From: Corynebacterium kalinowskii | GTDB taxonomy: Bacteria; Actinomycetota; Actinomycetes; Mycobacteriales; Mycobacteriaceae | Length of the DNA stretch: 64,000 nt | Assembly (NCBI RefSeq): GCF_009734385.1 | Contig: NZ_CP046452.1 | Location: forward strand, 744,001 to 808,000 | Reading direction: 5' to 3' | Shown: positions 24,140-40,595 of the stretch, piece after piece | Layout: each line of letters begins with the position of its first letter | How positions within the stretch are numbered: position 1 is the first letter of the stretch | Translations under genes and position numbers: made by a program | The notes under the pieces: model-generated | Seen by the model: only the letters and a program-made list of their open reading frames with translations | What the model was told of the DNA's origin: nothing | Database searches by the model: none

Positions 24140-24213
24140 GGGGCTATAGCTCAGTCGGTTAGAGCCGTGGACTCATAATCCATTGGTCGCGGGTTCGAGC
24201 CCCGCTGGCCCCA
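24140..24213 (+). tRNA. tRNA with CAT anticodon (probably tRNA-Ile2)
   Basis: 74-nt cloverleaf: acceptor GGGGCTA paired with TGGCCCC, discriminator A, anticodon loop CTCATAA (CAT), T arm GCGGGTTCGAGCCCCGC. The TTGGTCG variable/T-arm entry resembles tRNA-Ile2 (lysidine-modified CAT, reads AUA) more than elongator tRNA-Met, but identity is inferred. The 3' end of this gene is the attachment site of the element that follows; the gene remains whole after insertion. Confidence 0.9.
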
Positions 24214-24214
24214 C
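24199..24214 (+). repeat. attL core (tRNA 3' end)
   Basis: GCCCCGCTGGCCCCAC, spanning the tRNA T-stem 3' strand, acceptor strand and discriminator plus one base. An identical copy is at 40580-40595. Confidence 0.9.
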
Positions 24215-24330: not shown

Positions 24331-24356
24331 TTGCGTTGTAATTGCGTAGCGCAATT
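24331..24356. repeat. Left arm-type repeat plus palindrome upstream of integrase
   Basis: TTGCGTTGTAATTGCGTA at 24331-24348 recurs exactly at 40503-40520, near the other end of the element. It overlaps a perfect 7-3-7 palindrome (AATTGCG-TAG-CGCAATT, 24340-24356) that runs into the integrase ribosome site. Probably an arm-type integrase or excisionase site that may also regulate int. Confidence 0.65.
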
Positions 24357-24369
24357 AGGAGATTGCAAC

Positions 24370-25560
24370 ATGGCTAGGAAGAAGGCTCGCACCCGTAGAT
24401 CATGGGGACGCATCCGCGAAGCAAGCGGGCGGTTCCTCGCGAGCTACCAGCATGACGGGATCGTGTACAAAGCCCCGAACACTTTCGGAGCCATCATTGA
24501 TGCCGAAGGCTGGCTCTCAGATGTCCGTCGAAAGATCGACAACGGAACTTGGGTAGATCCCGAAGCCGAAGCCAGGGAGAAAGAAAACTCGAAGGTGACG
24601 GTTCGGCAACTCTGCGAAGAATGGCTGAGTGAAGCCGACCTGAAAGAGTCCACTAAACAGAGTCACGCCCGAAAGCTACAAGCGCGGGTGCTGTGCGATT
24701 CGTTCCCAGGCTTTGACTCTCTCGCTAATGTGCCCGTGGTTGAAGTCGATAAAGACAGAATCCGCGATTGGTGGTCTCAGGTTCAATCGGTGCCCGCATG
24801 GAAGAGCCAGAAGAACACGAATGTGCAGGCGTACAAGCGACTGTCTACCGCGTTCCGCTTTGCCGTCGAAACGAAGAAGTACATCTCGGAAAGCCCGGTA
24901 AAGATTCCCGGCGCTACGAAGTTGCCGAAGCCAGATCTACGCAAGCGCAAGAGGATTAGCGACGCGCAAGCAAAACTGTTGGCAGCCAACATCTCCCCAC
25001 GATTGAAGATTGGGGTTCAACTCATGCTCTGGGCTGGACTCCGATTAGGAGAGCTTTTGGAACTACGCCGAAGCGATATCGAAGGGCTAAACGGGCGGGG
25101 GGCGGTTGTCGTCAACATCTCTCGCAATGCGCAGCGGGTGAAAGACGAAGCGACTAAGAAACAGGTGATGATTACGATTGATACGCCGAAGACCGACGCG
25201 GGTAACAGGTCGGTTACGCTACCGCCGAAGATCGCTAAGGAATTGCGCGCGCACGCAAAGCAGTACATGGGCCCGGAAGAAGATGCGCTAGTAATCACCA
25301 CTGAGACCGGAAAACAGATGATGGACACGACGTTCAGAAGCCGTTTTGCAACCGCGAAAGAAGCAGCGGGTAGGCCTGAGATCACGCCCCACGATTGCAG
25401 GCGCTTCTATGGCACGATGCTTGTTAAGAAGGCCGGTATTCCTTTTGAAGACGCTAGGCAGCTCATGGGTCATGAGACCGTGGAGCAGTTGATGGAGTAT
25501 GTACGCGCGGAAGAGGAATACGAAGTGCAGGCAGCTAAGGCATTGGACAAACTCATATGA
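24370..25560 (+). CDS. int: Tyrosine site-specific recombinase (integrase)
   Basis: 396 residues from the ATG at 24370, with TAGGAG 10-15 bp upstream; a longer frame from 24331 lacks family similarity. It has an N-terminal arm-binding-like region (KARTRRSWGRIRE, ASYQHDGIVYKAPNTF), a SAM-like core-binding domain (about 75-180) and a catalytic domain. Catalytic residues: Arg225 in GLRLGELLELRRSDI, His341-x-x-Arg344 in HDCRRF, His368 in MGHETV and nucleophile Tyr377 nine residues later. All are present, so the enzyme should be active. It lies directly inside attL pointing into the element. Confidence 0.95.
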   Translation: MARKKARTRRSWGRIREASGRFLASYQHDGIVYKAPNTFGAIIDAEGWLSDVRRKIDNGTWVDPEAEAREKENSKVTVRQLCEEWLSEADLKESTKQSHARKLQARVLCDSFPGFDSLANVPVVEVDKDRIRDWWSQVQSVPAWKSQKNTNVQAYKRLSTAFRFAVETKKYISESPVKIPGATKLPKPDLRKRKRISDAQAKLLAANISPRLKIGVQLMLWAGLRLGELLELRRSDIEGLNGRGAVVVNISRNAQRVKDEATKKQVMITIDTPKTDAGNRSVTLPPKIAKELRAHAKQYMGPEEDALVITTETGKQMMDTTFRSRFATAKEAAGRPEITPHDCRRFYGTMLVKKAGIPFEDARQLMGHETVEQLMEYVRAEEEYEVQAAKALDKLI

Positions 25561-28555: not shown

Positions 28556-31219
28556 ATGAGCTCTACTTTAGCACAGAATGAGACCGATGTCACTACCCAT
28601 CTTAAGAATGGTCTAGCACTGTTTCCACTACCAGCAGGCCGAAAGTACCCGCCCGTGAAGAATGCGACCGGCAACATCCCTGACCTGACCCTCGAGCAGA
28701 TCAAGGAGTTTTGGGAGGACGCGCCCGCTGGCAGCAATACCGGCGTGAGAGTGCAACAGATTCCCGAAACTGAGCAAGAGATACTGATCCTCGACATCGA
28801 CCAGTACGACGGCAAGCAAGGCTATGAGAGCTTCAAGCGGGTGTGTGGGGAGCTAAAACTCGACGCTGACCAAGTACTCAACTCGACCATTCGTGTCTCT
28901 CGCAGAGACTCCGATAATCCTTCCGGTCACTACTACTTCACCGTGACAGCAGGACAGAAATTCCAGCGTTCCTGTGGCGCTGACGTTGACGTTATCCAGA
29001 AGGGTCACAGATATGGGATCGCGCCCGGCTCCGTCGTGGATGGCAAGGAATACAAGTGCTACAAAGGCACCAGCGACGAAGAGACCACCTTCTCACTGGA
29101 TAAGGCGCAGGCTCTGCCTTCCGCCCTGTTTGATTACCTGGTCGCTGGTATTGCCAGTGACCCTGAGCTTCAATCTGGTGAGTCATACGGCACCAGCAAG
29201 GCGATGCAGTGGCTGACGGCTTCCGCCCCTGAATTTGACGGAGATCTCGGAGACATCTTCACCTCGGAGCTAACCGGCGACGAACCGAAGAAATTCTCCT
29301 CGGAGATCTGGGAGAGCAATAATAGCCATGACGCTATGGTGGCAGTGACTCGTTGGGCTATTCGTCTCGCAGTGTTTGAAGGTGAGTCAGGCCTAAATAA
29401 GGCTCTCGAGATCTTACGTAGTGAGTTCTTCAACCGTCCTAAGTCGCACAATGCCACGGAAGGCGAATTTCAGCGTGCCATCACTGGAGAGGTGAATAAG
29501 GTTCGCTCAGAGATTGAGAAGGGGCGGAAGACGTATCTTGAGAAGACAGCGTTGCTTAAGGGGCTCGACGCCTCGACCCTTTCCGGAGCAGAGGTCGTCT
29601 ACGTGGCCTCCGAGACTTCGATCGCAGCAGTTGGAGATATCGTTCAGTTCACGCGCGGCATGGATCTTCAAGCAGCGCAGTTACTCGCTCTGACAAAACC
29701 AGAATTGGTCATCCGCATTATCCGGAAACCTGATGGGAAAAAAGACGAAGCCATTTACGACCCAGTGGCGGGTGTGGTGGTAGGCGAAGGTGATCTCGTA
29801 AACTTATATAACGATGTCGTGCCCGAACTCGTCGGCAAATGGGCTGCGACTCTCCCGGTGCCCGATATTGACGATGAGGATGCTGCCAAATACTACGAGG
29901 CTGCGATGAAGAAGGCACACATGCTGCAGTCCTATATGGGTAACGCGACCAACATCACGAGGCTGGCGAAAATGGCATTGGCTGCGATTCCGAGAAAGAT
30001 GGACTTTTCGGAGTTTAACGCTGAGCCAGGTGTTCGTGCGTTGCGTGGTAATACGCATGTTTTAGAGATGGCCGATGGTGTTTTCCGCGTCCGGCGTCGG
30101 ACTAGCAAAGATTTCCTCACTAATCAGTTGGGCTTCTCCTTTGAGCAACTTACTGAAGGCGTGAAGCAACTGAATCAAGGTGTCGAAAGCGACTTTGATC
30201 ACCTCATAGAGGTAGTTATTCCGAATCCTGAGTATCGTCAGTGGTTGCAAATGGCGATGGGGTATGCGCTGTATAAAGACAATCCCAAGCGCGTGCTGTT
30301 GGTGTGGTGGGGTGCAAAGGGCAGAGGTAAGGGCACTCTGGCGAACGCTTTCCTCAATTGGCTGGGTGATTATGGCGCCACAGGCTCGCTAGAGGCGATT
30401 TCTTCTCGCGAAGTGACCAACACTGAAAAGGTGCAGGTGATCCGCTCGACCATTGGGTTCATTTCTGAGTTGAGCTCGCGAACAGTGGGTGACGCCTCCG
30501 CATTGAAGGAGATTGCTGGCAACGATCCGGTGACTAGTGCGGACAAGTATATGCAGGCGGAAACCCACCATGGGACCACGCTGGTGATGCAGACCAATCA
30601 CGCGCCAACAATCACAGGAGCGGATGAGGCTTTGCGAGATCGACTGTTGGTGATCCCGTTTGAGGCTGATGATGTGGATGTCGCACACGAAATGCAGAAG
30701 ATTAGTCGCAGATGGCATGGCCAGTCATGGATGGTGCAGCCTGTCAATATCGCGGCTATGTTGAGGTGGCTGCGTAAAGGCTACCTCGATTCTCAAAAGG
30801 TTCAGTTTAGAGAGTCGGAGTACCCGAGGGGCATTGTCAGCAAGATCGACGAGTTCATGGCGACATCTAATCCGTTGCGTTCTGCGTTAACCGAGGAGTA
30901 TGTCTTTACTTCAAACCGGGATGATGTTGTTCCTACGACGTTAGTGAGGGACGCGCTGCGTACTTTGAACCAGGATCTGAAGGGGATTTCGCTTAGCGAG
31001 ATTGAAGAGGCAGTCAAAGATCTCGGCGGAGGCAAACGTCGTCCAATCATTGAGGGGAAGAAAGTAAGCGCGTACTGGGGTCTTCGTTCGCGCGAGGCTG
31101 ATGAGCAGATCTACGACGAAATGTTTCCTGGCTTTACTCGCGCCGAATGGAAAAAATATCTGGATGAGGTCGCCTTGACGGAGGCAGATTTTGAGTACTT
31201 ATCGGGAGCGGACATCTAG
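28556..31219 (+). CDS. Bifunctional primase-polymerase / SF3 helicase (D5/P4-family replication protein)
   Basis: 887-residue replication initiator of phage-satellite and plasmid type. The N-terminal prim-pol (AEP) domain has DID at 80-82 (LDIDQYDG), SGHYYF at 123-128 and GHRYGIAPGS at 150-159. A central region precedes the D5_N/SF3 helicase, where Walker A is GAKGRGKGT at 586-594; the segment GFISELS takes the Walker B position without the usual acidic pair, and NHAPTITGADEALRDRLLVIPF is the SF3 sensor region. The C-terminus is winged-helix-like. It is expected to prime and unwind at the element's own origin. Start: ATG with AAGAAGG upstream. The complete frame suggests a working enzyme. Confidence 0.92.
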   Translation: MSSTLAQNETDVTTHLKNGLALFPLPAGRKYPPVKNATGNIPDLTLEQIKEFWEDAPAGSNTGVRVQQIPETEQEILILDIDQYDGKQGYESFKRVCGELKLDADQVLNSTIRVSRRDSDNPSGHYYFTVTAGQKFQRSCGADVDVIQKGHRYGIAPGSVVDGKEYKCYKGTSDEETTFSLDKAQALPSALFDYLVAGIASDPELQSGESYGTSKAMQWLTASAPEFDGDLGDIFTSELTGDEPKKFSSEIWESNNSHDAMVAVTRWAIRLAVFEGESGLNKALEILRSEFFNRPKSHNATEGEFQRAITGEVNKVRSEIEKGRKTYLEKTALLKGLDASTLSGAEVVYVASETSIAAVGDIVQFTRGMDLQAAQLLALTKPELVIRIIRKPDGKKDEAIYDPVAGVVVGEGDLVNLYNDVVPELVGKWAATLPVPDIDDEDAAKYYEAAMKKAHMLQSYMGNATNITRLAKMALAAIPRKMDFSEFNAEPGVRALRGNTHVLEMADGVFRVRRRTSKDFLTNQLGFSFEQLTEGVKQLNQGVESDFDHLIEVVIPNPEYRQWLQMAMGYALYKDNPKRVLLVWWGAKGRGKGTLANAFLNWLGDYGATGSLEAISSREVTNTEKVQVIRSTIGFISELSSRTVGDASALKEIAGNDPVTSADKYMQAETHHGTTLVMQTNHAPTITGADEALRDRLLVIPFEADDVDVAHEMQKISRRWHGQSWMVQPVNIAAMLRWLRKGYLDSQKVQFRESEYPRGIVSKIDEFMATSNPLRSALTEEYVFTSNRDDVVPTTLVRDALRTLNQDLKGISLSEIEEAVKDLGGGKRRPIIEGKKVSAYWGLRSREADEQIYDEMFPGFTRAEWKKYLDEVALTEADFEYLSGADI

Positions 31220-31516
31220 GGACACTTAAGGGGTGTCCACTCAAAAATCCATTGGAACAGGGATTATCCAACTCTCGGTAGCGGGTGCGGACAATTGCTA
31301 AGTGTCCACCCCTTGCCCCTCCTGAGCTGGGAAAATCATTCAATGGACAAGCAAGACAACCTTTTTCTCGAAAAGTCTTGGAGAAAGGGGATTAGAGGTT
31401 CCCTTCCATGGGAGAGTTTGGAGGAAAGAGTGTTTCTCTAAATTGCTGTCCTTCTTGTCTATTGGCGCATAAGTGCAGCTCAAGTTGGGTGTGAGGTGGA
31501 CAATTAGTGGGTGTCT
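31220..31516. repeat. Three GGACA-N9-TGTC(C/T) dyads between convergent genes
   Basis: Within the 356-bp stretch between the primase stop and the convergent DUF3883 gene lie GGACA-N9-TGTCC at 31220-31238 and 31289-31307, and GGACA-N9-TGTCT at 31498-31516. A half site is at 31210-31214 and further singles (GGACA at 31345, TGTCC at 31447 and 31523) are scattered. The fixed 9-bp spacing suggests binding sites of a dimeric protein. No gene is evident here. Confidence 0.6.
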
Positions 31517-31575
31517 ATCTGCTGTCCGCTTCATGTCCTCCTCGGCAGGAGAAAGGCAGTTATGTCCAACTCGCC

Positions 31576-32995: not shown

Positions 32996-35197
32996 ATGGA
33001 TGAAACGCTAATAAATCACAGACGGAGCAAGTATTTGTCCAGGCTAAACGAGGTAATCGCCCAGATTTCGACAATGCACCCGCAGCTGGGGCAAGACCTC
33101 AAGAAGGAAATCGCACATCTCGCGGACCGGCGCAATTTCGGCCTCGTTTTCGAACGTCATCAGCCAGAGTCGGTTGAGCTGCCTTCGCTAAAAGTGCGGG
33201 TCGGTTCCAAAGTGCACATTCTCTCCCCGCGTGGAAGTGTTACTCCTTTAGCAGACAAGAGGCTGTGGCAAGTAGTTTCGATTGACTCCGGAGTTGCCGA
33301 ACTTGGAGAGGTCTTGCCGAACGGTCGCGACTGGAGTACAGAACTGCTCGGCCGAGAGCCAGAAACCCGCAGTGAAGCTATCGACGATCTCGTCGCGGTA
33401 GCGGAATTTCGTGACCCGATTTTCCCTGGGCTTGTAGAAACTGGTCGTGTGGAAAATGGAAGTGTTTCGGACCCATATCATGCGGTTATTAACGCTGAGA
33501 ATTTCCACGCATTGCAGATGCTCACGTTTTCACATCGTCATGCCATTGACGCGGTCTATATTGATCCTCCGTATAATACCGGCGCGAAAGATTGGAAATA
33601 TAACAACGATTACGTGGAAGCCGAAGACCAGTACAGGCATTCAAAATGGCTATCTATGATGGAAAAACGTCTGCTTTTGGCAAAAGAACTGTTAAATCCG
33701 GAAGATTCTGTTTTGATTTGTTCAATAGACGAAAAAGAATTCTTGAGACTTGGTCTATTGCTAGAACAGCTTTTCTCCGGAGCTCGCATTCAAATGGTGT
33801 CGACAGTAATTAACCCAGCTGGGGCGGGTCGAGCCGCTGACTTCTCTAGAACTGATGAATATCTTTATTTTGTGCAACTCGGGAATTCAAAGTTGCTGCC
33901 CATGGAGCGAGAAGTCGAGAATGTTCCTGTGGTATGGGATACCCTACGGCGCTCAAGCTTAGCTGGTGCTCGCGGTAAGAAAGGCAAGGGTGCATGCGGG
34001 CCAAACCAGTTTTATCCAATCTATGTAAACGACGATTCGGGCAATATCGCCTGTATCGGAGAGCCACTTCCTGAGGATATGGATATTTCTAACGCACCTC
34101 AGGTCGAAGGGTGCACAGCAGTGTTTCCAATTCGTCCAGATGGCACTGAAATGAACTGGGGGATTACACCTGACGTAGCGCGAGTGAGACTGGCCGAAGG
34201 ACACCTTCGAGCTGGAAAGCGAAAACCAAAGGAACCTCAACGATATGTCATCTCTTATCTCACTGGAGGAATTGTTCGAGATCTCGCAATCGGAAAAGCT
34301 ATCATCTCGGGTCGAGCCGAGAATGGGAGCGTTATAGCTTATTACCCGACTGGAAAAGACAAAATGCCCACGACTCATTGGAATTTTAAGAGTCATGATG
34401 CTCAACGATATGGAACTGAAATTGTGAAAGAGACTCTGCCAAGGCGGTCTTTTCCATATCCCAAGTCACTATATGCCGTCGAGGACGCGCTTCGCTTTTT
34501 TATCAAGAGCAAACCCAATGCAACTGTGCTTGACTTCTTTTCTGGCTCAGGGACGACCGCGCATGCAGTAATGCGACTAAATAAACAAGATGGGGGCCGT
34601 CGAAGGACCATCATGATTACAAACAATGAGGTCAGTGCAGATGAACAAGAGAAGTTGCGAGCGCTTGGCTATCGACCAGGAGATCCTGAATGGGAAGAAT
34701 GCGGAATTTGCGACTATGTCACTAAACCTCGCGTTACAGCGGCGATCACTGGACGCACTCCGGACGGTGATCCAATTAAGGGTGACTACAAGTTCACGGA
34801 CGAGTTTCCTATGAGCGAAGGTTTTGAGGCTAACGCGGTGTATTACACCATGACATATGAGCAGCCGACGATGGTGCACTACGGTGAAGCTTTCGAGAGA
34901 ATCGCACCCTTATTGTGGCTGAAGTCAGGGCAAACCGGCCCTGTCATTAGCCAGGTTTCGGATGCTGGGTGGGCAATAGCTGACACCTACGGCATCGTGT
35001 TCGACACCGATACGGCTAAACAATTGATTGACGCACTTGCGGGTACTCCGGTGGCAAAACTGGTGTACATCGTCACCGATGACACGCAAGCTTTCGAGCG
35101 CATCAGCCGTGACCTACCATCCGGTGTGCAGTCCGTGCGACTGTACGAGTCATATTTGTCCAACTTCGAGATCAACACTGCGGGGGCGATCCAGTAA
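32996..35197 (+). CDS. Type III-like adenine-specific DNA methyltransferase (Mod)
   Basis: 733-residue beta-class N6-adenine methyltransferase. Catalytic DPPY at 190-193 (VYIDPPYNTG) precedes the SAM motif DFFSGSGTT at 513-521; the roughly 320 residues between include the target-recognition region. It is longer than typical Mod (about 640), with a C-terminal extension (YYTMTYEQPTMVHYGEAFER, to LYESYLSNFEI) containing a possible Rossmann-like segment. Codons from about 33560 to 34640 are AT-richer than neighbours, as expected for a swapped recognition domain. The stop overlaps the next start (TAATG), so it is coexpressed with the nuclease. Confidence 0.9.
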   Translation: MDETLINHRRSKYLSRLNEVIAQISTMHPQLGQDLKKEIAHLADRRNFGLVFERHQPESVELPSLKVRVGSKVHILSPRGSVTPLADKRLWQVVSIDSGVAELGEVLPNGRDWSTELLGREPETRSEAIDDLVAVAEFRDPIFPGLVETGRVENGSVSDPYHAVINAENFHALQMLTFSHRHAIDAVYIDPPYNTGAKDWKYNNDYVEAEDQYRHSKWLSMMEKRLLLAKELLNPEDSVLICSIDEKEFLRLGLLLEQLFSGARIQMVSTVINPAGAGRAADFSRTDEYLYFVQLGNSKLLPMEREVENVPVVWDTLRRSSLAGARGKKGKGACGPNQFYPIYVNDDSGNIACIGEPLPEDMDISNAPQVEGCTAVFPIRPDGTEMNWGITPDVARVRLAEGHLRAGKRKPKEPQRYVISYLTGGIVRDLAIGKAIISGRAENGSVIAYYPTGKDKMPTTHWNFKSHDAQRYGTEIVKETLPRRSFPYPKSLYAVEDALRFFIKSKPNATVLDFFSGSGTTAHAVMRLNKQDGGRRRTIMITNNEVSADEQEKLRALGYRPGDPEWEECGICDYVTKPRVTAAITGRTPDGDPIKGDYKFTDEFPMSEGFEANAVYYTMTYEQPTMVHYGEAFERIAPLLWLKSGQTGPVISQVSDAGWAIADTYGIVFDTDTAKQLIDALAGTPVAKLVYIVTDDTQAFERISRDLPSGVQSVRLYESYLSNFEINTAGAIQ

Positions 35198-37863
35198 TGC
35201 GCTACATCCTGAAGGACTACCAAGCAGACGCCTCCACAAAGCTCGTTAAGCACTTGAGTGATTTTGCAGATAACTATCGGAGGAACGGCACTGTCGGCGC
35301 TGTAGGACTTGCAGCTATCACGGGTGCTGGTAAAACGGTCATCGCAGCCAGCGTGATCGAAGCAATCCTAAAAGGTACCGGCGATGAGCCAGCCGACCCT
35401 TCCGCAGTGTTCCTCTGGGTTTCCGACTCGGAGGATCTGAACGAGCAGTCTCGATGGCGCATTATGCAAGCCTCTAGCGAACTTGATGCACTCACGGAGA
35501 ACATCACCACCAGCTTTAGAGAACCAAAGCTGCGACGCGGTAGAGTGTATTTCCTTAATGTCCAGAAACTCGGTAAGAATTCGACTCTTGCCCGGCAACG
35601 CTACCGTGTGGCTGATCCGCAACAGCAGATGCTCGGTTCGATGCCCGCACCGGATTCCGGCGAGGTGGATTTGTGGCGGGTGATCGGAAACACGATCGAT
35701 GACCCGGATACGACCGTGTATTTGATTATTGATGAGGCTCACCGTGGCATGAGTAGTACGAAGAAGGCTTCGGAGGAACGTTCGACTATCGTGCAAACCC
35801 TCATGAAGGGTGCGCCTGCTACCGCGTTGGCGGAGGCAACTCCCGCGATGCCGATTGTTTTGGGTATCTCTGCAACTATCAAGCGATTTAACGACGTTAT
35901 TGCACAGTCTCCGGGGCGAGTGGCTGTCTCGGTGGAGGTGGATCCGTACAAGGTGCAGGCATCGGGTCTTGTCAAGGACACCATTACGTTGCATATCCCG
36001 ACTGAAGACGGTGTTTACGAAGAAATCTTGCTGCGCTCGGGTACGAAGTCGCTGATGCAGTTTGATCATGCTTGGGGTGGCTATGTGGCGTCCCAACCGG
36101 ATGAAAAGCCGGTTGACCCGTTGATGGTGGTGCAGGTGCCCAACAAGGTTACTGATCTGCAGATTGAGCAGTATATGAGCATTATTATGGATACCTGGCC
36201 TGCGCTGGGGGTGGGTGCATTTGCTCATGTGTTGGGTGACAAGAGGTCGATTCCTGCCTTGGGCGTGCTCGTTGACTATGTGGAGCCGGAGCGTATCCAA
36301 GACACCCGCGAGATCCGTGTTGTTTTTGCTAAGGAAGCGATTTCCACGGGTTGGGATTGTCCACGTGCTGAAGTGATGGTCTCGTTTAGGCCAGCTAAGG
36401 ATTTGGTGCACATCACGCAGTTGTTGGGTCGTATGCTGCGCACGCCCTTGGCTCGGAGCATTGACGGCAATGATTTTTTGAATTCGACGTTGTGTATCTT
36501 GCCGTACTTCGACCGGTCAAACGCGGTGGCGGTGGCGAACAAGGTTGCTTATGGTGGAACCTCGTTTGATGAATCCGATCCCACAACAGAGAAACTGCGA
36601 AGGGTGCTCATTAACCCCGTTGATCTCCATCCCATCGAAGGTGAAGTGGCCGATCGGGTGTGGGAGTGTTTTGAGTCCTTGCCGACTGATGCGGTGCCGA
36701 AGGGCACCTCGAATCCGATTCGTCTCCTCCAAGAGCTGGCATATGAGTTAGGCGTCGATGGCATTGTGGAAGATCCGAAAAAGACAGCCTTCAAGTCGCT
36801 CTGCCTAGCTTTGGATTATCAGTACGCGGATAACGAAGATCTCGTCAAGGACGTGGAGCACGATATTTGGAACTTGGAGGCTGAGTATCTGCAATTCCGA
36901 CTAGGCATCGCGAACGAAAACTCGAAAACGAAGGTTCGCTCAGCAGAGCATGGCGAGGAGGTCACATATCGCGCCGATGCGAACGTCGTTCGGGAGGCAG
37001 CAAAGAAGGCTGGTCGGACATTTAGCCCTGAGTTAGTCACTAAGTACGTCAGCTATCGAAAACAGCAGGATGCCAGTGGTCGTGATCTAGTGGAGGTATT
37101 CCAGGAAGCGCAGGTGCGTATCGCGGCTCTTGCTCGAGTAGAGAAAACTCGGGATGCGGTATTGGGTAAGGCTACGGAGATTATTCATCAGTGGCAGGAA
37201 CAGTTCCGGGTGGAAATGAAGATTCTCCCGGAGACTCGACTTGCCAAGTATGAGGAGATTTTCGAAAAGACTGATGTGCCAACGCGAATGGTGCTGCGCA
37301 AGCCTGCCAATGCTCAGGCTGAAACTATGATGTCGCAGGTTGATTCTTTCGGCAAAACGGTCGGGGAGCCAGTTGCAATTCCGCTGTTTGAGGGGCATGT
37401 GCTCGTCGATGAGCGCAATTTGTATCCAGCAATTCTGAACGACTTGGAAAACACCGTGGTTGAAACTGAAATGGCTCGGCAGGAGAGCGTAGCGTGGCTG
37501 CGGAACCGTTCATCAGGTGCTGGATCGTTTACGATCGGTTACCGTAATGCGGTTGGCGATTGGTCGAGTTTGCATCCGGATTTCCTATTCTTTTCTGAGG
37601 TGGGCGGTGCAGTCCGGGCGAGCATCGTGGATCCGCATAGTCACCACTTGGCTGATGCGCTGCCGAAGCTGCACGGATTGGTCAGATTCTATGAGATTGA
37701 CCCGGGAGCGTGGTGGCGTGTCGAAGCATTAACGGATCTGGGGCAGGGGGATATCCGAGGAATCGACTTAACCAAACAAACGGTGAGGGACGCAATTCGT
37801 AATGCGCAATCAGCGGAGGAACTCTATCGAGACGAAGGACTATCCTTTAAGTACGCGACTTAG
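35197..37863 (+). CDS. Type III-like restriction subunit: DEAD/DEAH helicase with C-terminal nuclease (Res)
   Basis: 888 residues. SF2 helicase core: Walker A TGAGKT at 42-47, DEAH at 179-182 (LIIDEAHRG), SAT in VLGISATIKRF and motif VI QLLGRMLRTP near 408, with the Res signature AISTGWDCPRAEVMVSFR before it. Near the C-terminus HPDFLFF (Pro794-Asp795) is followed 16 residues later by IVDPH, a D-x-H variant where type III enzymes carry (E/D)xK. With the overlapping Mod gene it forms a two-gene restriction-modification unit. Its target site cannot be read from sequence. Confidence 0.9.
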   Translation: MRYILKDYQADASTKLVKHLSDFADNYRRNGTVGAVGLAAITGAGKTVIAASVIEAILKGTGDEPADPSAVFLWVSDSEDLNEQSRWRIMQASSELDALTENITTSFREPKLRRGRVYFLNVQKLGKNSTLARQRYRVADPQQQMLGSMPAPDSGEVDLWRVIGNTIDDPDTTVYLIIDEAHRGMSSTKKASEERSTIVQTLMKGAPATALAEATPAMPIVLGISATIKRFNDVIAQSPGRVAVSVEVDPYKVQASGLVKDTITLHIPTEDGVYEEILLRSGTKSLMQFDHAWGGYVASQPDEKPVDPLMVVQVPNKVTDLQIEQYMSIIMDTWPALGVGAFAHVLGDKRSIPALGVLVDYVEPERIQDTREIRVVFAKEAISTGWDCPRAEVMVSFRPAKDLVHITQLLGRMLRTPLARSIDGNDFLNSTLCILPYFDRSNAVAVANKVAYGGTSFDESDPTTEKLRRVLINPVDLHPIEGEVADRVWECFESLPTDAVPKGTSNPIRLLQELAYELGVDGIVEDPKKTAFKSLCLALDYQYADNEDLVKDVEHDIWNLEAEYLQFRLGIANENSKTKVRSAEHGEEVTYRADANVVREAAKKAGRTFSPELVTKYVSYRKQQDASGRDLVEVFQEAQVRIAALARVEKTRDAVLGKATEIIHQWQEQFRVEMKILPETRLAKYEEIFEKTDVPTRMVLRKPANAQAETMMSQVDSFGKTVGEPVAIPLFEGHVLVDERNLYPAILNDLENTVVETEMARQESVAWLRNRSSGAGSFTIGYRNAVGDWSSLHPDFLFFSEVGGAVRASIVDPHSHHLADALPKLHGLVRFYEIDPGAWWRVEALTDLGQGDIRGIDLTKQTVRDAIRNAQSAEELYRDEGLSFKYAT

Positions 37864-38251: not shown

Positions 38252-38721
38252 TACGACCTGAGAACTATCCACGTGGACTCCCCGCCTACTACCCATGCAG
38301 CACGAATCAGGTGTGGCATTGCAGTGCCCGCCCACGACAAGGAGACCGGCCAGTGGGTGCTCTCGCAGGCGAAGAACAACCTGGGTAAGTTCATGCCCGC
38401 GTATAACTTCGATCTCGTAGAAAACGGTTCACCGCCGATGATGGCAACACCGGCACGGCTATGGTGTTCGCCCTTGGCTCCCGCTCGGAGTTCACCGCCG
38501 ATGAGATCCAGCAGCGCAATAAGTTCCATTCCAGCGGGGAGAAGGAGACGGCTAAGGGTTGGCTGAGGGACTATCTCAAGGAACACGACGCAACGCTCAA
38601 GAAGGAGATCCTAAAGGTCTCTAACGGCAAATTCTCTGAGAGCGCAATAGAGAAAGCATCGCGGGATCTTGATCTTGAGAAATCTTACGACAACCGTAAG
38701 GTGATGTGGTCACTTCCGTAA
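38252..38721 (+). pseudogene. Relic of a RepA-like AAA ATPase (C-terminal remnant, frameshifted)
   Basis: No start codon fits the whole stretch. One frame reads LYDLRTIHVDSPPTTHAARI and on to NNLGKFMPAYNFDLVEN; near 38430 the frame shifts by one base and continues as DDGNTGTAMVFALGSRSEF to a C-terminal winged-helix-like end (WLRDYLKEHDATLKKEIL, WSLP). This resembles the C-terminal end of prophage and plasmid AAA-family replication ATPases. The ATPase core itself is gone. Its last codons are part of the first iteron of the adjacent origin-like array. Family assignment is moderate. Confidence 0.6.
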
Positions 38722-38977
38722 TCGACATCCGTAACTCTGGGGAGTGTCTTACGGAGTTACGGAAGTGGGGGTAAATATATATATATATCTACCTGGGGTT
38801 ATACCACTTCCGTAATATTACGGATGTGCGGATGTGGAAGGGTTGACTTCCGTAAGTCAGCGGTGTTGACTTCCGTAATAGTTACGGATGTGGATTTACC
38901 CCCTTTTACCTGGGGTTATGTCCTTAAAAGTGGCCACTTCCGTAATTCCGTAAGTGTCTTACGGATGTTACGGAATT
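38711..38977. repeat. Iteron array with AT-rich core: putative replication origin
   Basis: About eleven copies of TTCCGTAA/ATCCGTAA in both orientations: forward at 38712, 38725, 38806, 38846, 38869, 38936 and 38946; reverse (TTACGGA) at 38757, 38818, 38882, 38959 and 38968, plus a partial at 38748. A TA-run lies at 38774-38788. ACCTGGGGTTAT occurs at 38791 and 38908, and GGGGGTAAAT (38767) is mirrored by ATTTACCCCC (38894). No ORF crosses it. Dense bidirectional repeats beside an AT-rich unwinding tract and a replication-gene relic fit an origin. Which protein binds is unknown. Confidence 0.75.
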
Positions 38978-39029
38978 ATCCAACAAACTGCTTTAGTGTG
39001 GGTTTAGGTTTAAGTGAGATAATGAAGAA

Positions 39030-39617
39030 GTGATAACTCTCGCTCAAGCAGCAACCACGGTGACGCAGACCGTCACGGAGACCCTAACCGTGACGCAGAC
39101 TCCGAGTCCGGTTTTCGTTCCTGTTCAGCAACCAGCGGTTGAGCAGGGGACTAACTGGTCGCTATGGATCTCTATCTTTGCTCTGTTGGTCGCCGGTCTG
39201 TCGTTGCTCTGGAATATCATTTCGTGGCGCAACAGCGGGGCAAGGCTAAAGGTTAGACTTAGTGCCGGATTTATTTCAGATCGAAATGACTCGGTCGATG
39301 CTGTTGGGGTAATAATCGAAAATGCGGGACGGCTCACAACTACGATCAATGTATTAAAGTTTCCTTATCGACAAGCTGGGATTAAGAAGTTCATTCACTT
39401 TGATTCCAGTTCATTTATGTATGGTTGTGAGCTTCCGCAATCACTGGCACCTGGTGAACGAGTGACCTACTTGCTGAAAGATGAAGTGCTAATTGAAACT
39501 TTGAAACGCTGCAATGTCAACGCGCGTCAACTCTCACTCGTGGTTTCAACTGGACATGCGGACTTTAATGTGCAGATACCTGAAAAGGTGCTTGCCTATA
39601 TTGACGGACTCAGGTAG
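39030..39617 (+). CDS. Hypothetical protein with one transmembrane helix
   Basis: Function not recognised. 195 residues, GTG start. An N-terminal Thr-rich repeat (TVTQTVTETLTVTQT) is encoded by a repeated GTGACGCAGAC; a single membrane helix follows (LWISIFALLVAGLSLLWNIISW, residues about 44-65), then a soluble beta-rich C-terminal domain (LKVRLSAGF, GVIIENAGRLTTTINVLKF). It is likely anchored with the C-terminal domain in the cytoplasm. Single genes of this layout are common in accessory regions next to defence systems, but no family can be named. Confidence 0.7.
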   Translation: MITLAQAATTVTQTVTETLTVTQTPSPVFVPVQQPAVEQGTNWSLWISIFALLVAGLSLLWNIISWRNSGARLKVRLSAGFISDRNDSVDAVGVIIENAGRLTTTINVLKFPYRQAGIKKFIHFDSSSFMYGCELPQSLAPGERVTYLLKDEVLIETLKRCNVNARQLSLVVSTGHADFNVQIPEKVLAYIDGLR

Positions 39618-39859
39618 CTCCGTGCATGACCCCCGGTCTCTGGCACCCCTGGGGGGGACACCTACCCACCCCCACGCGCGCAGTCCTTCGGTGCTGCACT
39701 TTTTCGCGTGCGACAGTTGAGGAAAACGGGCTTAAGTATAGTTAATCGAACATTAACCCGGTTAACCAACGCTTAATTTACGTCATGCATGCCCCAGGGC
39801 ACTGGCCGAAAATCGTGCCACTGGGGCAATGTGCAAATGTTTGGTCGGAGCTCGAAATA
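39618..39859. other. Gene-free stretch with hairpin
   Basis: No gene seen. It contains a long hairpin with arms GCCCCAGGGCAC (39791-39802) and GTGCCACTGGGGC (39815-39827), without a T run on either side, and a palindrome-rich AT segment with TTAACC-CGG-TTAACC near 39756-39770. Confidence 0.5.
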
Positions 39860-40579: not shown

Positions 40580-40595
40580 GCCCCGCTGGCCCCAC
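40580..40595 (+). repeat. attR core
   Basis: GCCCCGCTGGCCCCAC, an exact copy of the tRNA 3' end at 24199-24214, with no tRNA body in front. It marks the right boundary of the element. Confidence 0.88.

Follow-up and report, generated by a model that had tools for sequence, protein, structure and literature searches.

Here, we describe a repeat array (38711-38977) in a 64-kb stretch of Corynebacterium kalinowskii DNA (hereafter the window, corresponding to 744001-808000 of the single-contig 2.51-Mb genome), which lies near the right end of an integrated element. With good confidence, we read this array as an iteron origin belonging to an AAA_25 replication ATPase that now survives as a C-terminal remnant, and most likely as an orphaned second origin. 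It is assigned to the relic ATPase because it is positioned where that ATPase family carries its own arrays. The element also encodes an intact Prim-Pol, and as the Prim-Pol and the relic each have an adjacent array, the element carries two, this one without its initiator; an orphaned second origin is therefore the most likely interpretation, given that the initiator has been lost and a different, intact Prim-Pol has an array of its own beside it. The features of the array and the relic are:

38711..38977, no strand assigned, iteron array of 13 TCCGTAA units (consensus ACWTCCGTAA) in both orientations, with 4 units before the AT tract and 9 after it
38772..38788, no strand assigned, AT-only tract of 17 bp, candidate unwinding element (20-mer with 5% GC from 38772)
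38790..38802, plus strand, accessory motif TACCTGGGGTTAT, copy 1
38907..38919, plus strand, accessory motif TACCTGGGGTTAT, copy 2
38767..38776, plus strand, GGGGGTAAAT arm, mirrored as ATTTACCCCC at 38894-38903
38461..38721, plus strand, AAA_25 replication-ATPase relic comprising the C-terminal winged-helix end (86 aa), stop codon inside the first iteron
38273..38435, plus strand, possible upstream piece of the relic ATPase, read in a different frame (weak match; E 0.003 and 0.0009, probability 23%)

Twelve exact copies of WTCCGTAA (seven forward, five reverse) lie within 262 bp (38714-38975) and none elsewhere in the window; genome-wide there are 84 in 2.51 Mb, including these 12. One CTCCGTAA brings the count to 13 TCCGTAA units, a copy number that no 7-mer reached in dinucleotide shuffles (0/300; shuffle maximum 4), and the fuller unit ACWTCCGTAA is matched exactly by ten of the 13, with AATTCCGTAA in two and AACTCCGTAA in one. 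An earlier note on this DNA had reported about a dozen units in both orientations, a repeat present twice, a mirrored block and a TA tract, no gene, and a position 7.5 kb from the primase and directly after a replication-ATPase relic. This description is borne out: no credible gene was found inside 38711-38977, the array begins 7.5 kb from the Prim-Pol stop (31219), and the relic ends in a stop codon (38719-38721) that overlaps with the first repeat. The further claim, that this is the replication origin of the element, stands in part, as an origin-type array is strongly backed by the relatives described below, whereas an element origin served by the primase is not, the Prim-Pol having its own array. 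No DnaA boxes were found inside the array at 0-1 mismatch to the consensus, nor are they enriched in the window.

The relic is 34, 35 and 31% identical to the ends of open frames of 727, 630 and 713 aa, respectively, and its C-terminal winged helix is homologous to the AAA_25/winged-helix family defined here (hhalign E 1.2e-7; profile search E 2.2e-7; also matched by a winged-helix model). The intact ATPase domain is missing and the C-terminal end alone remains, and a profile search found no intact relative in the same genome. Searches with the relic piece gave zero matches in phages and viral contigs, only itself in 151 genus genomes, and matches in 3 of 250 family genomes besides its own. 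A 15-bp exact direct repeat, GTTCACCGCCGATGA, is present inside the relic (38427-38441 and 38490-38504), near the frame change.

Among relatives of the ATPase, repeat arrays are common. The densest repeat window falls inside the ATPase gene in 14 of 22 genus loci, at 336-520 bp ahead of its stop, a position immediately following the winged helix. At least five copies of one 7-mer are found around the gene end in 34/74 usable loci versus 3/280 control stretches, a survey in which redundant loci were counted (L128, L174 and L187, whose genes extend past the contig end, were excluded, and the duplicates L132, L152, L153 and L154 were omitted). When the zone is anchored on the winged helix instead (-30..+270 bp, 300 bp), at least four copies of one repeat are seen in 39/54 non-redundant relatives compared with 5/406 control windows, and at least five in 28/54 compared with 0/406; these 54 derive from 85 loci, 63 of which were matched at E 1e-2, after omitting L082 and collapsing at 85% identity. 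The 38711-38977 array falls within the same zone relative to the relic's winged-helix end. The repeat units of the relatives vary from lineage to lineage and are mostly present in both orientations, and therefore peptide repeats alone are insufficient to explain the arrays. In an earlier survey with the zone fixed at the stop codon, only 2/30 AAA_25 loci (L091 and L092) beat every shuffle; 17 of the 30 read as RadA/DnaB-like by score, and several of the remaining loci were missed because their array lies inside the reading frame. No papers on arrays of this AAA_25 family were among the matches listed in the open-access literature.

A second motif, GACCTGC, is found more often at arrays than in control windows (15/39 versus 25/294), even though the iterons of these arrays differ, and GACCTGCG with one mismatch allowed shows a smaller gap (28/54 versus 143/405 controls); one copy of GACCTGC is also present in the Prim-Pol-type array of L071. 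The window's TACCTGGGGTTAT is not above controls in the relatives at up to three mismatches (4/61 versus 11/240), and at up to four it is found in 31/61 versus 70/240. Among 188 loci, ACCTGGKGTTAT occurs only in own-genome loci and in L070/L080, which are one place.

A three-unit pattern of the array is confined to its own genome (1/242 genus genomes and 1/401 family genomes, the family draw overlapping the genus set), a two-unit pattern gives a single site in 3/150 genus genomes besides its own, and in genome contigs the three-unit pattern marks two stretches, one in a Clostridia and one in a Yonathbacteria metagenome-assembled genome. The database search for the iteron that the earlier note had proposed was empty by blastn (region 38600-38990 against phages and plasmids, zero matches), but array patterns marked 6 and 49 stretches in viral contigs, of which 10 (own-genome loci excluded) have at least five TCCGTAA per 400 bp. 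Surrounding gene content was inspected for L002, L053 and the less dense L007, and by eye no replication gene was recognised near the L007 stretch. One viral contig (L012, 470-830) has 14 tandem TCCGTAA units in a single orientation, and in another (L053, 1902-2144) TTACGGA repeats lie directly 3' of a D5_N/DUF5906 helicase gene, a similar repeat beside another initiator type.

Comparison of the 41 loci with arrays suggests which domain reads the repeats. With increasing winged-helix identity, the share of locus pairs that have the same repeat rises from 1/246 (<30%) through 12/455 (30-45%), 28/100 (45-60%) and 7/12 (60-75%) to 7/7 above; for ATPase identity, the same bands give 0/85, 11/462, 30/212, 1/36 and 13/25. 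Twenty-five pairs have an ATPase identity of at least 75%; of these, repeats are shared by 12/12 with winged-helix identity of at least 60%, by 1/5 at 45-60% and by 0/8 below 45%. In these comparisons, repeat identity thus tracks the winged helix rather than the ATPase. In DNA, two genes of one genome (L117 and L130) match at 88-100% as far as the winged helix; identity falls to 33-51% over the winged helix and its array and returns to 92-100% beyond them, a pattern that looks like a natural swap of a winged helix plus array cassette. Sequence comparison shows that the two are exchanged as one specificity cassette, and the C-terminal winged helix is most likely the reader of the repeats in the AAA_25 family.

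In the proposed model, the C-terminal winged helix of the ATPase would read short, lineage-specific repeats just 3' of its own codons, often inside the gene; its binding would lead to loading of the ATPase, melting of the AT tract and the start of replication. The DNA half of this cassette is well kept in the window and the initiator lost, so the orphaned array would be silent in a cell that has not acquired an initiator with matching specificity. At present the array may be a fossil, helper-driven or interfering. Several points weigh against this model. The upstream half of the relic is recognisable weakly, at the E values and 23% probability given above; 15/54 relatives lack an array by the winged-helix-anchored measure, whose zone and metric were chosen after the densest-window result for the 22 loci; and a winged helix of the relic's type is unrecognisable in 22/85 loci, L002 among these. 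Repeat sharing also climbs, less regularly, with ATPase identity (13/25 at or above 75%, 1/36 at 60-75%), and the locus pairs compared are not independent. Finally, the array is well kept despite its broken initiator and may be used in trans. A version of this last idea, which we consider unlikely, is that the orphaned array, possibly together with the 86-aa winged-helix remnant as a small protein, has been kept because it acts on other replicons: an incoming satellite or phage of matching specificity would supply an initiator that is titrated by the array or drives it, resulting in incompatibility or helper-driven replication beside the restriction system of the element.

An alternative that we regard as doubtful is that the array is the working origin of the element and is used by the Prim-Pol from 7.5 kb away. 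The features concerned are:

28556..31219, plus strand, Prim-Pol/primase-helicase frame of 887 aa, intact; no other intact replication protein was found in the element
31210..31567, no strand assigned, second array, GGACA/TGTCC x11, directly behind the Prim-Pol

The intact Prim-Pol frame and the well-kept array at 38711-38977 would fit this alternative, as would the TTACGGA array behind the D5-type helicase gene in L053. The Prim-Pol's own array is, moreover, weak by 7-mers, which are not significant (reached by 45/300 shuffles). However, this different array lies directly behind the Prim-Pol, its 5- or 6-mer counts are reached by 0/300 shuffles, and WTCCGTAA is absent there. GTGTCYA, a motif known beforehand as the repeat of a Prim-Pol relative in the same genome, has 3 of its 19 exact window copies in this array, and its core TGTCYA 7 of 67, and for either no other 370-bp stretch has as many. 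Two relatives likewise have an array behind the stop that exceeds all 100 shuffles: the own-genome relative (L076; 46% identity over 827 residues), whose array comes with an AT tract, and a 29%-identical protein in another genome (G003), with eight copies of AGGTCGTG. A protein search with the Prim-Pol (8000 best candidates scored) had the paralogue and one distant partial match among the matches listed but missed the relative in G003, so this short list is not proof of rarity; no relatives were found in viral contigs.

The array might also consist of transcription operators for a regulator controlling 39030-39617 or its neighbours, a reading that we hold to be quite improbable. It does lie upstream of an open reading frame (ORF) starting at 39030 and the element encodes small helix-turn-helix (HTH) proteins, but 13 units over 262 bp plus an AT tract exceed a usual operator, and the arrays of relatives sit at the winged-helix end of the ATPase, often within the reading frame. 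Iteron-like clusters can have another role as centromeres, and a partition site of a former plasmid was considered as well; this is very improbable, as no ParA/ParB-type domain was found among the 10 ORFs scanned and the position of the array in relatives is tied to a replication ATPase.

The ~16.4-kb element extends from the 3' end of a tRNA-Met gene (left) to a 16-bp exact copy (right) and has a GC content of 52%, compared with 60% in its surroundings. It encodes an integrase, HTH proteins, the 887-aa Prim-Pol, a NOV_C-domain protein and a type III restriction-modification pair, with the orphaned array near its right end. Its remaining features are:

24199..24214, plus strand, left attachment site (att) core, 3' end of tRNA-Met 24140-24214
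24331..25560, plus strand, tyrosine integrase of the element
32996..37863, plus strand, mod and res genes of type III restriction-modification, flanked by the two replication modules
40580..40595, plus strand, right att core, repeats the tRNA end exactly over 16 bp

A second, related element (L076, 9086-17383; own genome 1352000-1371000) comprises an integrase, HTH genes, the Prim-Pol paralogue, an array accompanied by an AT tract and, in addition, a gene resembling that of a terminase small subunit (Pfam Terminase_7, E 3.6e-12; the PHROGs label for that protein is minor tail protein), and from this gene content it looks like a phage satellite. When the Prim-Pol (28556-31219) is aligned with its paralogue (L076, 10184-12916), the primase halves are highly similar and the helicase halves very different, with the first ~350 residues of the protein conserved and the rest diverged (division by eye), which suggests that helicase plus origin have been exchanged. 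A segment with TCGAACATTAACC..GTTAA is common to both elements (window 39625-39790; in L071 behind its array, by eye), and its 20-bp pattern is absent from the other 241 genus genomes.

A short repeat array is thus tied to its most likely reader, a protein domain with which it moves as one cassette. In small actinobacterial mobile elements, origin recognition thereby becomes open to direct testing, and the link explains how two origin-type arrays can be present in one element. Integration at a tRNA, as in this element, is a trait of actinomycete integrative and conjugative elements (AICEs). AICEs of Actinobacteria are integrated elements with a Prim-Pol/RepPP gene (PMC3218068), and the element resembles them in having a Prim-Pol replication gene. 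One difference from AICEs is that a scan of 10 ORFs of the window, the smaller ORFs of the element not among them, revealed no TraB/FtsK-type transfer protein. Many small actinobacterial mobile elements are supposed in one survey to be phage satellites (PMC10023795). In the pri-rep-ori replicon of phage-inducible chromosomal islands (PICIs) and Staphylococcus aureus pathogenicity islands (SaPIs), the origin is described as lying directly 3' of the initiator, with two iteron sets around an AT-rich region (PMC6092414), as for the 4 + 9 units around 38772-38788, 3' of an initiator gene. Integrase and xis-like genes, and the terminase-small-subunit-like gene of the sister element in the same genome, are further likenesses to PICIs and SaPIs as outlined there. 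Unlike in these islands, the initiator is of the AAA_25 type with a C-terminal winged helix, the arrays are often inside its gene, the rep gene cognate to the array is a relic only and the other primase system is intact. The broken initiator is why the element is not classed as a PICI. Lambda O is a different protein from the AAA_25 ATPase. In the O/ori of lambdoid phages, iterons and an AT-rich region are embedded in the initiator gene (PMC7466680), which is comparable to the intragenic iterons in many relatives of the relic ATPase but not to the window array, which starts at the relic's stop codon. In phage-inducible chromosomal island-like elements (PLEs) of Vibrio cholerae, the DNA-binding domain and the origin of RepA_N/ori modules covary and are exchanged jointly (PMC8263062), as in the AAA_25 family, with the difference that PLEs are described with a RepA_N domain and three ~30-bp iterons and the family studied here has a winged helix and ~10-bp iterons. 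By analogy, the array would work like a PICI or lambdoid iteron origin, and it covaries like PLE RepA and its origin.
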